Positions 12,055-23,581 of a stretch of DNA of 27,317 nt are shown here, in pieces. This DNA is from a virus: the IMG/VR virus record IMGVR_UViG_3300047666_000754, positions 1 to 27,317 of that record. The stretch is one strand, 5' to 3'. Under the pieces are notes generated by a model, which worked only from the letters and a program-made list of their open reading frames with translations, was not told where the DNA came from and ran no database searches. The translations under genes and the position numbers were made by a program. How positions within the stretch are numbered: position 1 is the stretch's first letter; every line of letters begins with the position of its first letter.

Positions 12055-13392
12055 TTAGAAGGTAGAGCCTTTAGCGGTTACCTTAGTCCCAGCACGAATT
12101 GGGTAGAGATATTCTACAGCGTACCGTAGACCATCAGACCAGTGCTCAACTCCTTCTTTCTTATCGATAGAGGCGATGTCTGGGTTACTCTCTGTCCAAG
12201 ATGTTCTTTCAACAGAACGAATGGTATTAACACAACGAGGGTGGATTAACATATCAATCTCACCAAGTGCGTTCTTAAACTTCTTATTGACAGCAGCTAC
12301 CGAATCAATAATAGGTGGTGCCTTACTATGTGCTCGTGTCTGTATCTTGTATGCTGGACTCTCAAGGATTTTGAAGTCGGTGATACCCACGGCAGCTGAT
12401 GTCTTCCTTGCTCGACCACTTGGGTCAGGGTAGGAGATAATCTTGTGGTTCTTATATTTTGTTCTTAGCGCCTTAGCCAAGGCATACGTATCGGGGTGAC
12501 CTTGCATTTCATCAAGGATCTGAATTTGATTACCTCGAATAGCAAAGATGATACTAGCCATGATACCGACGTTAAAGTCAATAGCTACGTGTACATCCTC
12601 ATCACCATCAAAGTCTTGAAGGGTTGGATCAATGTGTTCTTTACGGTTAAAGGTATAGAATACGCTGTTACCAGAGTCTTCAAAGGAAGCCTTATATTCT
12701 CGTGCAAATTTGAGCGGGTCTAGTGTAGACTTAATACGGTCAATTTCTTCTGTGTCTAGGTAAGGTGAATCGTGATAAGTATAGGTGTAACTATTCCAAT
12801 CATCATCGACCTCTTTACGGTTATACATTTCATAGAAGTAGTCATAGCCTTTAGGTGTGCTAATAATCAGTGCTCGACCGGGGTTAGCCCCATAACGTGC
12901 AGCATTCTTCCTTGACCAACGTGTTGATACACAGGGCTGAATAATACTCTCCCAAGACTCCTTGAGGTTCATACCAGCGCCCTTCCAAGATGTTACCTCA
13001 TCGGCTACAACAAAGTATTGACCAGTACCACGCATACGCTCTGATGCTTCATAGGACCAGATCTTGAGTGTTACATTGTTAGGAAACCAGAAAGTACCAG
13101 CACTTCTTGAGGACTTAATAGCGTGTTCTGCCATACCAAGTTGGTAAGCAATTAGTGGGAAATAGATGTCTACGGCTTGACTATAAGTAGGGGCAATAAC
13201 AGCCACGTTCTTGTTAGGTACATCAGGGGGTAAGGCTATCAGTTCATTAACAGCAATTGCAGCAGCAGTACCAGCCACATAAGACTTACCAAAGCCACGA
13301 GAAGCGTTCGCTACAAGATAGCGGCAGGTCTTAGCTACAAATAGGTCGTTAATGATATCTGACTGGCCTTCGTGCAATACAATATCTGTCAT
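12055..13392 (-). CDS. terL: Terminase large subunit
   Basis: A 445-residue packaging motor ATPase/nuclease. Walker A is NASRGFGKS (Lys36) and Walker B is YFVVADE (Asp131, Glu132). A likely coupling motif, LIISTPKGYDYFY, follows. The RNase H-fold nuclease carries VAIDFNVG, ISYPDPSG and the late acidic motif HWSDGLRYAVEYL. It translocates DNA into the prohead and cuts it at the start and end of packaging. Length is normal for the family. A 61-aa gene, a membrane protein gene and a terS-like gene lie upstream; fibre genes follow directly, with no portal nearby. Confidence 0.95.
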   Translation of the reverse strand: MTDIVLHEGQSDIINDLFVAKTCRYLVANASRGFGKSYVAGTAAAIAVNELIALPPDVPNKNVAVIAPTYSQAVDIYFPLIAYQLGMAEHAIKSSRSAGTFWFPNNVTLKIWSYEASERMRGTGQYFVVADEVTSWKGAGMNLKESWESIIQPCVSTRWSRKNAARYGANPGRALIISTPKGYDYFYEMYNRKEVDDDWNSYTYTYHDSPYLDTEEIDRIKSTLDPLKFAREYKASFEDSGNSVFYTFNRKEHIDPTLQDFDGDEDVHVAIDFNVGIMASIIFAIRGNQIQILDEMQGHPDTYALAKALRTKYKNHKIISYPDPSGRARKTSAAVGITDFKILESPAYKIQTRAHSKAPPIIDSVAAVNKKFKNALGEIDMLIHPRCVNTIRSVERTSWTESNPDIASIDKKEGVEHWSDGLRYAVEYLYPIRAGTKVTAKGSTF

Positions 13393-14234: not shown

Positions 14235-14705
14235 TTAGGAGGGACGGGTGGTTAGTGTAATAGAGATAGGACTCTTAGTAGAGTTTTCTACTTCAGTCTT
14301 TTCAGGGATTCTCTTGTAACCATACTGCATAAGGTTGTTAATAAGGGTTGCCTTAGTAGCAATCAACTGGGCATAAGCACCAGAGCCTACTCTAACAAGG
14401 TTATTGTCTAGTACTCGGCAGATCTCTTCGTATTCATAGACCATACGTTCAATAGGGTCAAAGTTAAGCTCTTGTAGTTTATTAACTGACTCGTGGGAGT
14501 GGATGTTTTTAGATCCTTTGGGACGGCCTGAGCCAGTACGCTTACCACCACGAATACCGTCACCCTCACGCTTCTTATTACGGACACTCTCAGGGAGTTT
14601 GAAAGAGCCTTTAGGACGACCTCGACCACGCTTCTTGGTAGGGACATCTACTTCTTCCTTGGTTTCTTCTTGGGATAAATTTTCTTCATTTTTCTTACCT
14701 TCCAT
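14235..14705 (-). CDS. terS: Putative terminase small subunit with two AT-hook motifs
   Basis: A 156-residue basic protein. Two AT-hook-like motifs, RGRGRPKGS and GSGRPKGS, lie in the first half (about residues 27-64) within a Lys/Arg-rich low-complexity tract. 'GGKRTGSGRPKGS' is a frequent start of phage small terminases. The second half (LNFDPIERMVYEYEE, then ATLINNLMQYGYKRIPE) looks like the helical oligomer segment of that family. TerS binds the packaging site and controls TerL. The gene is first in the late block and lies next to the structured non-coding element. RBS AAGGAAGG precedes the ATG. Confidence 0.65.
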   Translation of the reverse strand: MEGKKNEENLSQEETKEEVDVPTKKRGRGRPKGSFKLPESVRNKKREGDGIRGGKRTGSGRPKGSKNIHSHESVNKLQELNFDPIERMVYEYEEICRVLDNNLVRVGSGAYAQLIATKATLINNLMQYGYKRIPEKTEVENSTKSPISITLTTRPS

Positions 14706-14782
14706 AATAAGACCTTCCTTACATCTTTTTCATTAGAAATTTTTTACTAAATGTTAACATAAGAATACCAGTACAACAACCT

Positions 14783-14811
14783 ATTTTAAAGAAATCAATC
14801 AAGAATCTTAA
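14783..14811 (-). promoter_or_regulatory. Possible sigma-70 promoter for the late block
   Basis: On the minus strand, TTAAGA (complement of 14806-14811) is followed after 17 bp by TAAAAT (complement of 14783-14788), close to -35/-10 consensus. It lies about 80 bp before the terS-like gene. In AT-rich DNA such matches arise by chance, so this is tentative. Confidence 0.25.
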
Positions 14812-14918
14812 GATTTGTTATAACTAAGGAACCTAAAAAAGTAGTTCCAGTCTGATCTTATTTAACACAGTAATATTGATAAAATTATTTTAATAATAAC
14901 TATCACACAATACTCACA

Positions 14919-15128
14919 CCTGAGGCCCTAAACAAGTGAATACTAAGCAAACACTTGGGTGGTGCTACCCCCGTCCTTAGGGATAGATACTATTACAATA
15001 ATAATAGAGCCTTTAGACAGCTAACTTTACAAGGACATTATCGGGGGTAGACATACAGTTCCCCTTTCAAATGTCAGTAGGGGAGTGCATAACAGTGTTT
15101 GCTTAGTAATCACTTGCAGAGGCTCAGG
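14919..15128. other. Nested inverted-repeat element (possible packaging site, origin or structured RNA)
   Basis: Outer arms CCTGAGGCC/GGCTCAGG (14919-14927, 15121-15128, one bulge) enclose a 23-nt inverted repeat with one mismatch (14933-14955 and 15094-15116, core TACTAAGCAAACACT). Inside are CTACCCCCG/CGGGGGTAG (14965-14973, 15042-15050), TCCTT/AAGGA, CTATTA/TAATAG (14990-15007) and a separate TCCCCT/AGGGGA hairpin (15060-15084). These stems are mutually compatible and fold as a branched structure. It lies upstream of the terS-like gene, as cos/pac sites often do. Function is unknown. Confidence 0.6.
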
Positions 15129-15250
15129 CAGAGTCATTGCAGTTAGAGAGTCTACAGTTTTGTAAAGCTCTTATCATTAGTCGGCAGTATTTTTGTGTTT
15201 ATTCTTTACCCTTATTTGTATAGAGATTATGAAGTCCCATAAAAAGCAAA

Positions 15251-15321
15251 AAAAAAATTATGGTCACCCAACCAACCCAACCAAAACACCCCAGAGGGCA
15301 TTAAGGAAGGGTTGGTTGGGT
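15251..15321 (-). terminator. Strong hairpin terminator at the early/late boundary
   Basis: ACCCAACCAACCC (15266-15278) and GGGTTGGTTGGGT (15309-15321) are exact 13-bp complements around a 30-nt loop. On the minus strand the hairpin is followed by a run of T (complement of 15250-15258). On the plus strand it is followed by TTTTAATTTA, so it could act both ways. It ends the early transcript just after the 43-aa gene. Confidence 0.75.
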
Positions 15322-15327
15322 TTTAAT

Positions 15328-15459
15328 TTAGTCGCATAGCTTCTCAATAGTCTCTGTTTGAGTAAGTTCTTTTTCCTCCTGTAAGTAGGAGTTAATAATA
15401 AAGGCCGTTGTAAAACTTAATACAAATATAGTTAAGAGGTGATATATCTCAGTTCTCAT
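15328..15459 (-). CDS. Small single-pass membrane protein (43 aa)
   Basis: A 43-residue ORF starting MRTEIYHLLTIF, with RBS TGGAG 7 bp before the ATG. Residues of about 5-26 form one hydrophobic helix and the C-terminus is charged (EEKELTQTETIEKLCD). It is the last gene of the early block, ending right before the terminator. Function unknown. Micro-membrane proteins of this sort are common in phage early regions. Confidence 0.5.
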   Translation of the reverse strand: MRTEIYHLLTIFVLSFTTAFIINSYLQEEKELTQTETIEKLCD

Positions 15460-15491
15460 AGTAGTTCTCCATTATTGTATGATGTTTATTC

Positions 15492-15641
15492 CTAACAGGA
15501 TTGGTCACACCAACGATGTCCACAGGTATCACAAGAGGGGCCATAAGAGCAGTCACAGTTTTCCCCTACAGGATCACCATCACTATCTGTTTCTTCCTCA
15601 CAATCTGAACAGTAAACTTTATTCTTATCTTCTTCCATCAT
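15492..15641 (-). CDS. Cys-rich mini-protein, zinc-ribbon-like (49 aa)
   Basis: A 49-residue protein whose start overlaps the previous stop (ATGA). It carries eight cysteines (YCSDCEEE, ENCDCSYGPSCDTCGHRWC, terminal SC) plus a His, a pattern fitting one or two small zinc-binding knuckles. The middle is acidic. No family recognised. Tight translational coupling supports it as real. A DNA-, RNA- or protein-binding adaptor role would be a guess. Confidence 0.6.
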   Translation of the reverse strand: MMEEDKNKVYCSDCEEETDSDGDPVGENCDCSYGPSCDTCGHRWCDQSC

Positions 15642-21308: not shown

Positions 21309-21403
21309 TCCCAGTTACTCCAATTGTCGCGATCGTTGTCGTCGTCTTTGAAAGCCAAGGCAACAACAAAGGCCGCAGCTAAAGCTATTAAAATGTATTC
21401 CAT
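21305..21403 (-). CDS. Micro-membrane protein (32 aa)
   Basis: A 32-residue ORF (MEYILIALAAAFVVALAFKD) with one helix and an acidic tail (DDDNDRDNWSNWE). It starts within the stop of the prs-like gene (TAATG) and ends by overlapping the next gene. Coupled translation supports it. Function unknown. Confidence 0.5.
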   Translation of the reverse strand: MEYILIALAAAFVVALAFKDDDNDRDNWSNWE

Positions 21404-22095
21404 TAAATTTCATCCCCAATGTACCAATCAGCAAAGTTAGATCGCAAGAACTCTGGCTTATGGATATTTTCGTTGTACCGAACCCAAAGGGAGATATCCC
21501 CTCCAAAGCCGTTATCAAAAAGAATATCAACAAGCATTTGAACAGTAGCACCACCACCAAGGAGATCATCAACAATAATAATATCATACACATCTAAGTT
21601 AAGCTCTGTGTCAAAGGAAAGACTAGTGACCTTCCCATCCTTTCTTACTTTAGTTGCAAAACCATCAACCTGAGGGAAGAACTTAGGTACAGAGCTATCC
21701 GCCCCAATAAAAAGAACGTTGTCAGTATTTACGGTAGGCAAGTCTCCAAGGATTTCTTTCTTAGTAAGGATGTCTGATTTAATATACCCTGTGCTTTCAT
21801 GCTGGATAGAAAGGCAGACAATATCGAAAGAGTGAAGATAAGAGTAAATAGTACTTACAGGGAACTCATCCTTATCCCCTCTCATGTGGTCTACATAACC
21901 CTCCACATAGACTGTCTGTTTTCGGGCAGCACACCGTGAGCTTTGGCTTTTGTATAGTTGGAGTGCCATTAGTGACACAAAGGTTTTACTATCCAGTTGA
22001 CGAACATGAATAGCGTCTTGAACAGCCAAATCAAGGAAGTTCTCGGTGTTGAGTTCGCCTTTGCCGCGCTTGTAGTAATTAAAAGTCTTCATCAT
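21403..22095 (-). CDS. prs: Short ribose-phosphate pyrophosphokinase (PRPP synthetase)-like protein
   Basis: A 230-residue protein. The phosphoribosyl-binding motif DIIIVDDLLGGGATV lies at about residues 171-185. Upstream, VEGYVDHMRGDKDEFPVSTI and FDIVCLSIQHES align by eye with the Prs core 'YxxxARQDR...S.K' and 'D.HS'. It is well below the roughly 315 residues of bacterial Prs, with the N-terminal part reduced. PRPP synthetase makes PRPP from ribose-5-phosphate and ATP. Beside nadV this would supply the second substrate for NMN synthesis. Whether the short form is active is not shown. Two adjacent ATGs compete; the first is given. Confidence 0.65.
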   Translation of the reverse strand: MMKTFNYYKRGKGELNTENFLDLAVQDAIHVRQLDSKTFVSLMALQLYKSQSSRCAARKQTVYVEGYVDHMRGDKDEFPVSTIYSYLHSFDIVCLSIQHESTGYIKSDILTKKEILGDLPTVNTDNVLFIGADSSVPKFFPQVDGFATKVRKDGKVTSLSFDTELNLDVYDIIIVDDLLGGGATVQMLVDILFDNGFGGDISLWVRYNENIHKPEFLRSNFADWYIGDEI

Positions 22096-22240: not shown

Positions 22241-23581
22241 TCAAAATACCTTCTTAAGATCACCACCAACAAAACGTCCGGTAAGAGATTTCTTACTTTG
22301 GTCTGTTTTAGGGTCTTTCTGAATGTTTACCCACTCACCATCAATCTCAACGGCAGTAGCTTTAAAGGCAAAACCCAACTCATCACGGGTAGTAAGCTGG
22401 TAGGTGTAGGCACCAATGCCAAAGACAAGGTTAAGTGGTGAGTAACCCCGTTCAACCATTGTATCAAGCATAGTGATAATCCGCTCTTGATTCATACCAT
22501 CACCGTAGATCAGACCAATGTGTGAGTCAAGAACTTTAAGTCCGGCTGAGTCAAGAGTGTGACCAAAGACTTCATCAAGGATTCGGAGTGAACCTTTTTC
22601 TGCATCTGTTGGCTTGTGATTTGGAATATAAGCAACCCCACAGATAATCTCAACAGGATCACCTGAGTCAGGACGAATAACAACCTTACCTTCACGAGCC
22701 ATGATACGATATTTCATGGAGGGGAGTGTCTCAGTAAGAACCTTAAAGTAATCCCAAGTGTCTGATACAATAGAAACAATACCAGAAGGATAGATGTCAA
22801 GGATCCGTGAGTAGGTTTCTTCTTCGGTGGCCTGACCACCAGCACACATAACAGAGTGTTCAGTAGCAGGAACAGAGAAGCCAGTAATCTCACCATAAAC
22901 CTGCTCCATTTTACGGATAGCAGGAATAGTGTCAGAACCCTTAAAGTTAGCAAGGTGTCCACAACCAACCATAGCTGCGGCTTCATCACCCATCAGGCCA
23001 CGGTAAGAGAAGTCGTGGCCCATGAAGTCAATAGCAGCAAGTTCTTCTTCAGAGTAGCCAACCATCTTTGCTTCAATAGATTTACGAATGTGCCAAGCAC
23101 GGTTAGCTGCAGTTGTTACGCCCCAAACGTTTGCCAACATACTTGTTTCAATAAAGGCCGGAAGCCAAGCAAAGCGATCGTCTGTGTTTTCAATAGTTAG
23201 CAGGGGTGTTTGGAACTTAGCAATGGTCTTCTCAGGTACCGCACAGATAGTGATTGGTATCTTACCCAGCATCCAAAGGCCTTTCCAGTGAGAAACGTCG
23301 TTATCACCACCAAGGCGAGTGTCAAGGAACTTCTTGTACACTACAAGGTCATCATCAACCTGTTGTCCATTTAAGTTAAGAAAGTCCTCCGCCCAAGTTT
23401 GAAGCTTATCAATGAACAGGGAGTAGCCAAACCACTGGAACTCCTCTTTAGAAATGTTATCGTTGTAGTTGGCACCACGAGCAACAAGTACTGAGTGTAC
23501 CTTGGTAACGTTATCAGGGTACTGTGCTTTGTGAGACACTTTATAAAAGTCAGCAGCGTACATTAGGTTGAAGTTAGTCAT
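22241..23581 (-). CDS. nadV: Nicotinamide phosphoribosyltransferase (NAMPT/NadV)
   Basis: A 446-residue enzyme that joins nicotinamide to PRPP to give NMN, the first step of NAD salvage. Motifs in order: AADFYKVSHKAQYP at the N-terminus, DFMGHDFSYRGLMGDEAAAM (about 187-206), SVPATEHSV, IVSDTWDYF, VVIRPDSGDPVEI (the phosphoribosyl site), IGLIYGDGMNQ and LVFGIGAYTYQ. It is shorter than human NAMPT (491), lacking part of the C-terminal tail after SLTGRF. NadV occurs in many phages and is part of NAD+ reconstitution that counters NAD-depleting defences. Prs follows two genes downstream. Confidence 0.95.
   Translation of the reverse strand: MTNFNLMYAADFYKVSHKAQYPDNVTKVHSVLVARGANYNDNISKEEFQWFGYSLFIDKLQTWAEDFLNLNGQQVDDDLVVYKKFLDTRLGGDNDVSHWKGLWMLGKIPITICAVPEKTIAKFQTPLLTIENTDDRFAWLPAFIETSMLANVWGVTTAANRAWHIRKSIEAKMVGYSEEELAAIDFMGHDFSYRGLMGDEAAAMVGCGHLANFKGSDTIPAIRKMEQVYGEITGFSVPATEHSVMCAGGQATEEETYSRILDIYPSGIVSIVSDTWDYFKVLTETLPSMKYRIMAREGKVVIRPDSGDPVEIICGVAYIPNHKPTDAEKGSLRILDEVFGHTLDSAGLKVLDSHIGLIYGDGMNQERIITMLDTMVERGYSPLNLVFGIGAYTYQLTTRDELGFAFKATAVEIDGEWVNIQKDPKTDQSKKSLTGRFVGGDLKKVF

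Follow-up and report, generated by a model that had tools for sequence, protein, structure and literature searches.

A covarying pseudoknot RNA upstream of the terminase genes in uncultured marine phages

Phage phi29 has no TerS/TerL system, and the loops of its pRNA pair between neighbouring molecules. The RNA described here shares with pRNA a helix plus two arms, complementary loops and nearby packaging genes; it differs in that an intramolecular pseudoknot is the simplest reading of its loops, whereas those of pRNA pair intermolecularly. In the pistol ribozyme, a 6-bp pairing joins the P1 loop to the strand between P2 and P3 (PMC6154101). This helix order and 6-bp pseudoknot are the same in our RNA, and pistol too is often found near phage genes (PMC6154101). 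However, the P1-P2 linker and the fixed-length P3/P2 junction of pistol, with the catalytic bases and the scissile G-U, are without counterpart in our RNA, in which neither the P1-P2 linker nor the P3 region is constrained in length or sequence; its invariant letters lie elsewhere (P1 loop ACU..UGRA, P2 CCCCCG), and it has no Rfam match. The putL element of HK022 closely follows its promoter and works as a folded nascent RNA (PMC9378689). Our RNA would likewise be a folded nascent RNA that heads a long operon, follows a phage promoter and has its first bases in a stem, whereas put measures about 70 nt, comprises two stem-loops and belongs to early operons of lambdoid phages (PMC9378689). There is no sequence or pairing likeness between the two, and only ours has a pseudoknot architecture. 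The cabRNA of staphylococcal phages is also a structured phage RNA of the terminase region, yet it is transcribed inside terS-terL and has no sequence common among phages, while ours is intergenic and conserved (PMC10686824). Finally, the Rfam families manA, wcaG and PhotoRC-II are structured cis-elements found mostly in marine phage DNA (PMC2864571), but they accompany other genes and none reaches threshold here.

The window, i.e., the whole stretch of DNA analysed, is a 27,317-base IMG/VR virus record. It contains no gathering-threshold match to Rfam 15, and in permissive Rfam searches of 11 loci no match at the RNA reaches any family's cut-off. Blastn searches of 50,697 phage records, with either the whole gap or the core as query, gave no match; nor did a comparison of the commonest core variant with GTDB genomes or a search of IMG/VR with the exact P0 arm, the last because the letters of P0 are not conserved. 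A search of the openly accessible journal literature found no description of the RNA. It is a new RNA family, outside Rfam 15, of a general kind (phage leader RNA) that is already known.

Nearly all plausible genes of the window read on the minus strand, with the late genes to the left (Table 1). The earlier note took the gene beside the structured element for terS, for which position and family resemblance speak, but the identification gains no confirmation from structure: the AlphaFold model of the protein is weak (mean pLDDT 66), and Foldseek returns no PDB match. We observe two AT-hook-like motifs in this TerS-like protein, RGRGRPKGS and GSGRPKGS, which adjoin the AT-rich gap; the second alone is kept in most relatives. 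The gap itself (about 14706-15640) is, as had been noted, the longest non-coding stretch around the terS-like gene. It also holds a terminator-like hairpin that probably ends upstream transcripts and is retained in the relatives L007 and L010 with changed letters in its arms. This hairpin sits between the early genes and the promoter-like element; one arm, GGTTGGGTTGGTTGGG, is G-quadruplex-prone, and the L007 version reads CCCCTCCCTCACCCC..GGGGTGAGGGAGGGG. Elsewhere in the window, two adjoining genes (21403-22095 and 22241-23581) are, as read from their translations, ribose-phosphate pyrophosphokinase-like and nicotinamide phosphoribosyltransferase-like, and together look like an NAD salvage pair.

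Table 1. Features of the RNA and its surroundings; positions are those of the window unless a locus is named.
Feature	Position	Strand	Basis or remark
Large terminase subunit (TerL)	12055..13392	-	PHROG 2, E 6e-36
First gene of unit, probable small terminase subunit	14235..14705	-	Position; family not confirmed
AT-rich stretch between RNA and first gene	14706..14908	-	23% GC at 14700-14899
P0 3' strand: inner arm 14955-14933, outer part 14924-14909	14909..14955	-	Repeats, folds
Core matched by covariance model R1, 55.3 bits	14963..15087	-	Window sequence (L081) is one of 20 training sequences
P2 3' strand CGGGGGU	14967..14973	-	Pairing in homologues
P3 region	14974..15033	-	Length and sequence variable between homologues
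Pseudoknot 3' strand AAUGUC, just inside G/C stem P2	15034..15039	-	Hexamer covariation
P2 5' strand ACCCCCG, then 2-nt spacer AU	15042..15048	-	Pairing in homologues
P1 hairpin: 5' strand 15084-15079, 13-nt loop ACU-GACAUU-UGAA 15078-15066, 3' strand 15065-15060	15060..15084	-	Compensatory changes
Pseudoknot 5' strand GACAUU, in P1 loop	15070..15075	-	Hexamer covariation
P0 5' strand: outer part 15138-15123, internal-loop side 15122-15117, inner 23-nt arm 15116-15094	15094..15138	-	Repeats, folds
5' hairpin directly after promoter-like element	15147..15171	-	Folding
Promoter-like element AAATACTGCCGACTAATGATA, -10-like TAATGAT	15172..15192	-	Invariant or near-invariant here across clades
Terminator-like hairpin 15267-15320, then T run 15246-15261	15246..15320	-	Repeats; strongest hairpin plus T tract
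PHROG 8198 inserted genes	L024:4009-4752, L028:1325-2107, L058:2889-3632, L106:7934-8674

The nested inverted repeats from which the earlier note had drawn a branched element are present, far beyond chance: a 23-nt repeat (14933-14955 / 15094-15116, 96%), a 9-bp stem (14965-14973 / 15042-15050, 100%) and the outer arms (14919-14929 / 15118-15128). Compared with 200 dinucleotide shuffles, the 210-nt stretch folds far better on both strands, with no shuffle as good (minus strand, -85.9 kcal/mol, z -8.0; plus strand, -82.1 kcal/mol, z -6.8). The first description was right in its repeats but incomplete: the pseudoknot, the promoter-like element at 15172-15192 and the terminator-like hairpin at 15267-15320 went unnoticed. 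The hairpin CAAGTG/CACTTG, which had been proposed as one side of a switch, is present only in near-identical relatives and absent from L006 and the other clades.

On the minus strand, the central feature is a pseudoknot in which 6 bp link the loop of the P1 hairpin (15075-15070) to the strand at 15039-15034. In general, the P1 loop has 13 nt (ACU-N6-UGRA) and P2 is a C/G stem; the N6 letters of the loop pair with a hexamer that lies two bases inside P2. The order of these parts is that of pistol, and this, together with the small core, its invariant unpaired letters and its occurrence in phages, would suit a new self-cleaving ribozyme of pistol-like topology, which would trim the late transcript to a 5'-hydroxyl end. 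The conserved linker and junction of pistol are absent, however, no Rfam ribozyme matches and no permuted forms were seen; judged on these sequences, such a ribozyme is unlikely.

A search with TerL yielded 80 related viral loci, of which four near relatives have an alignable gap. With unalignable flanks, L006, L008 and L041 share the core CUACUGACAnnUGRAAG ... CCCCCG(nn)nnUGUC ... CGGGGG, and further homologues were gathered by pattern scans. A covariance model built from 20 sequences, the window (L081) included, matches 43 TerL-selected sources, which score 43-90 bits, and 35 pattern-selected loci, which score 54-92 bits; several of the latter are further copies of the same contigs. Below the true matches, scores drop clearly, to 30 bits and lower. 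Because the window belongs to the training set, its own score is not independent evidence, whereas the covariation is. By this model, the RNA lies upstream of a terS-like gene in dozens of IMG/VR phage contigs, and it is the only strong match in each of 15 contigs of up to 61 kb. One match, in L130 (29.5 bits), was rejected as it has neither the pseudoknot nor the P2 3' strand.

Compensatory changes affect P1, P2 and the pseudoknot, and also the outer stem P0; covariation in related phages was among the checks proposed in the earlier note. Among 46 aligned homologues, the pseudoknot is formed by nine different hexamer pairs (GACAUC/GAUGUC, GACAUU/AAUGUC in the window, GGUACU/AGUACC, GAUACU/AGUAUC, GAUAUC/GAUAUC, AACAUC/GAUGUU, GGUAUC/GAUACC, UGCAUC/GAUGCA and GACAGU/ACUGUC), and all 46 are complementary at 6 of 6 positions. 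Five of the six pairs of P1 show compensatory changes (45 distinct homologues), and the outer pair of P2 is C-G, A-U, U-A or G-U in 46/46; P2 pairs were counted by script, MAFFT having shifted the P2 3' strand by one base in homologues with five Cs. Taken jointly, P1 and the pseudoknot have a covariation score of 0.616 against 0.209 in shuffles (0/500), and slid controls give at most 0.15. Since relatedness among the sequences inflates this shuffle test, a second test left the pseudoknot letters free: IMG/VR was scanned with both hexamers unconstrained, and duplicates were removed. The P2 3' strand is present in 27 of the resulting sequences, of which 26 have perfectly complementary hexamers and one pairs at 5 of 6, and five random matches without the P2 3' strand score 0, 1, 1, 2 and 5.

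The letters of P0 are wholly different between clades, with pairing kept. P0 was scored with a strict alignment; a loose symmetric one ran past the real stems. In the strict stems, a strand-unbiased count gives 27 G-U against 1 A-C on the sense strand of the operon; over half of the G-U come from one ancestral position, and the others, found mainly in L115 and L146, lean the same way. This excess indicates that the RNA is read as a minus-strand transcript. A real conserved RNA fold on the minus strand, in the sense of the downstream genes, is therefore almost certain, and the structured phage RNA that the earlier note had listed among several options is strongly supported by compensatory change, constant sense orientation and the predominance of G-U over A-C. 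The internal loop of P0 is conserved as CUCUG opposite UAU in L029, L031, L116 and others, and is UUCUA in some clades, with the first and last letters changing together.

In L115, P0 amounts to about 50 bp of double-stranded RNA. Such a long duplex could be a site at which the leader is cut, for example by RNase III, to release a trans-acting RNA directed at the host, defence or packaging; the loop complementarity could be intermolecular, the packaging genes adjoin, and two junction arms with complementary loops recall phi29 pRNA. However, clade C (L052, L205, L212) has no P0, and L043 carries a hairpin in its place, so that release by RNase III is not general, no terminator was found after the RNA in the window, and the variable parts give no conserved antisense target. 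We consider a trans-acting product rather doubtful.

Just before the RNA lies a 20-nt promoter-like element, which reads TACCTGACGTTTAAGAATAA in most loci, ATACTnCCGACTAATGATA in the clade of the window and TACTGCCCnCTTATGATA in a third. It ends in a -10-like word and is normally single-copy per locus; the window holds one copy even with 6 mismatches allowed. The element at 15172-15192 is the putative late promoter. It is separated from the RNA by 0-100 nt and is followed by P0, by an unrelated hairpin or by P1 itself. Short 5' hairpins of unrelated sequence stand right after it in L171, L172, L117, L127, L043 and L202, as well as in the window, and sequence resembling a tRNA 3' end (by appearance) lies directly upstream of it in L133, L145, L160, L117 and L094. 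In L205 and L212, the distance from the element to the P1 loop is only 13 nt, which means that the core must be at the 5' end. Most simply, then, the late (terS-terL) transcript probably starts with this RNA, and in the window its first base would fall near 15166-15171.

A structured 5' end and core could protect the late mRNA against 5'-dependent decay by RppH/RNase E, or by RNase J in many alphaproteobacteria, and thereby stabilise it. The first transcribed bases would fall in P0 or in an unrelated 5' hairpin in many clades, and the RNA is independent of the first gene, both of which fit such a protective leader. A simple stem would suffice for that purpose, though, and the invariant letters of the loop and P2, like the pseudoknot, suggest a more specific task; the conserved compact core thus argues for more than a plain protective stem, and we give protection a modest chance.

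In all 50 loci examined (50/50), the RNA is on the strand of the operon and terS, and upstream of terS where terS is present. Its distance to terS spans about 150 nt to over 1 kb, and in some loci the interval contains further genes: a PHROG 8198 gene (about 247 aa, function unknown) in four (Table 1), and apparent homing endonucleases, identified by eye, in L008 (GIY-YIG) and L044 (HNH). These insertions indicate that the RNA is independent of the start of terS. Where other genes run into terS (L060, L061, L074), neither the promoter-like element nor the RNA is present, while the promoter-like element is kept and the RNA absent in L034 and L038, as well as in L007, L010 and L011, where the element is of the window type. 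The RNA is also absent from the whole records of the Naomviridae isolates DSS3_PM1 and DSS3_VP1 and of EBPR siphovirus 1. As far as these sequence comparisons go, the RNA accompanies the promoter and the head of the operon, not terS as such, and it is replaceable; from L034, L038 and the Naomviridae isolates, it follows that late expression can do without it. In L115, a group I intron (RF00028, 2665-2908, E 7e-23) lies where the terL match breaks off, and so probably within terL.

That the RNA does not depend on the first gene speaks against a translational switch. Control of terS by a ligand riboswitch or a translational leader would agree with a 5' leader that has a conserved pseudoknot core, but with terS at varying distance, intervening genes and junction linkers free in length, it is highly improbable. 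The same holds for a cos or pac element working as double-stranded DNA next to terS, one of the options in the earlier note. Here the adjoining terS/terL, the AT-hook-like motifs of the TerS-like protein and a slight enrichment of contig ends in the RNA element (about 7/62) are outweighed: what is conserved is RNA pairing with sense-strand G-U, the RNA stays by the promoter when other genes separate it from terS, and the contig ends spread over about 100 nt, the pattern that assembly breaks at an inverted repeat would produce. Contigs that start inside the element at scattered positions (L006, L008, L012, L018, L035, L044, L079) probably reflect such breaks.

The note's further option, a replication origin, has found no support beyond AT-richness. 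Promoter, structured 5' RNA and an AT-rich unwinding region could together form a transcription-primed origin, and in homologues the 150 nt downstream of the RNA have a mean of 24% GC against 40%, with the median at the 1st percentile. However, AT-richness is common in non-coding leaders, and in loci with a PHROG 8198 insertion (L024, L106) it is far less pronounced, which leaves an origin very unlikely.

We give about even credence to the RNA being some kind of cis-acting operon leader. RNA polymerase would start at the promoter-like element, and the leader would fold while emerging and act in cis on the whole operon, not on translation of one gene. Its compact fold may contact the elongating host polymerase or a factor on it; along the long late operon, the polymerase could then withstand pausing or termination by Rho, as with HK022 put. 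Of the mechanisms considered, we favour this polymerase-directed, put-like one, by analogy of position with putL, but only tentatively. No strong intrinsic terminator is present inside the late genes of the window, so that nothing obvious needs antitermination except against Rho, and boxA of lambda nut, GCUCUUU(A), has a full match only in L041, with no recurrence among loci; these two results keep our confidence in the mechanism low.

In summary, a well-supported RNA family with an unusually clear covarying pseudoknot heads the packaging operon of common marine phages. Its position allows short, cheap tests from synthetic DNA, of self-cleavage, antitermination and mRNA stability. It is possible, if somewhat speculative, that late transcription in widespread uncultured marine phages is controlled by a new class of self-cleaving ribozyme with pistol-like topology or by an RNA-only modifier of RNA polymerase. 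If the RNA cleaves, it would represent a new ribozyme class; were RNA polymerase its target, it would join HK022 put as the second example of RNA-based control of phage operons.
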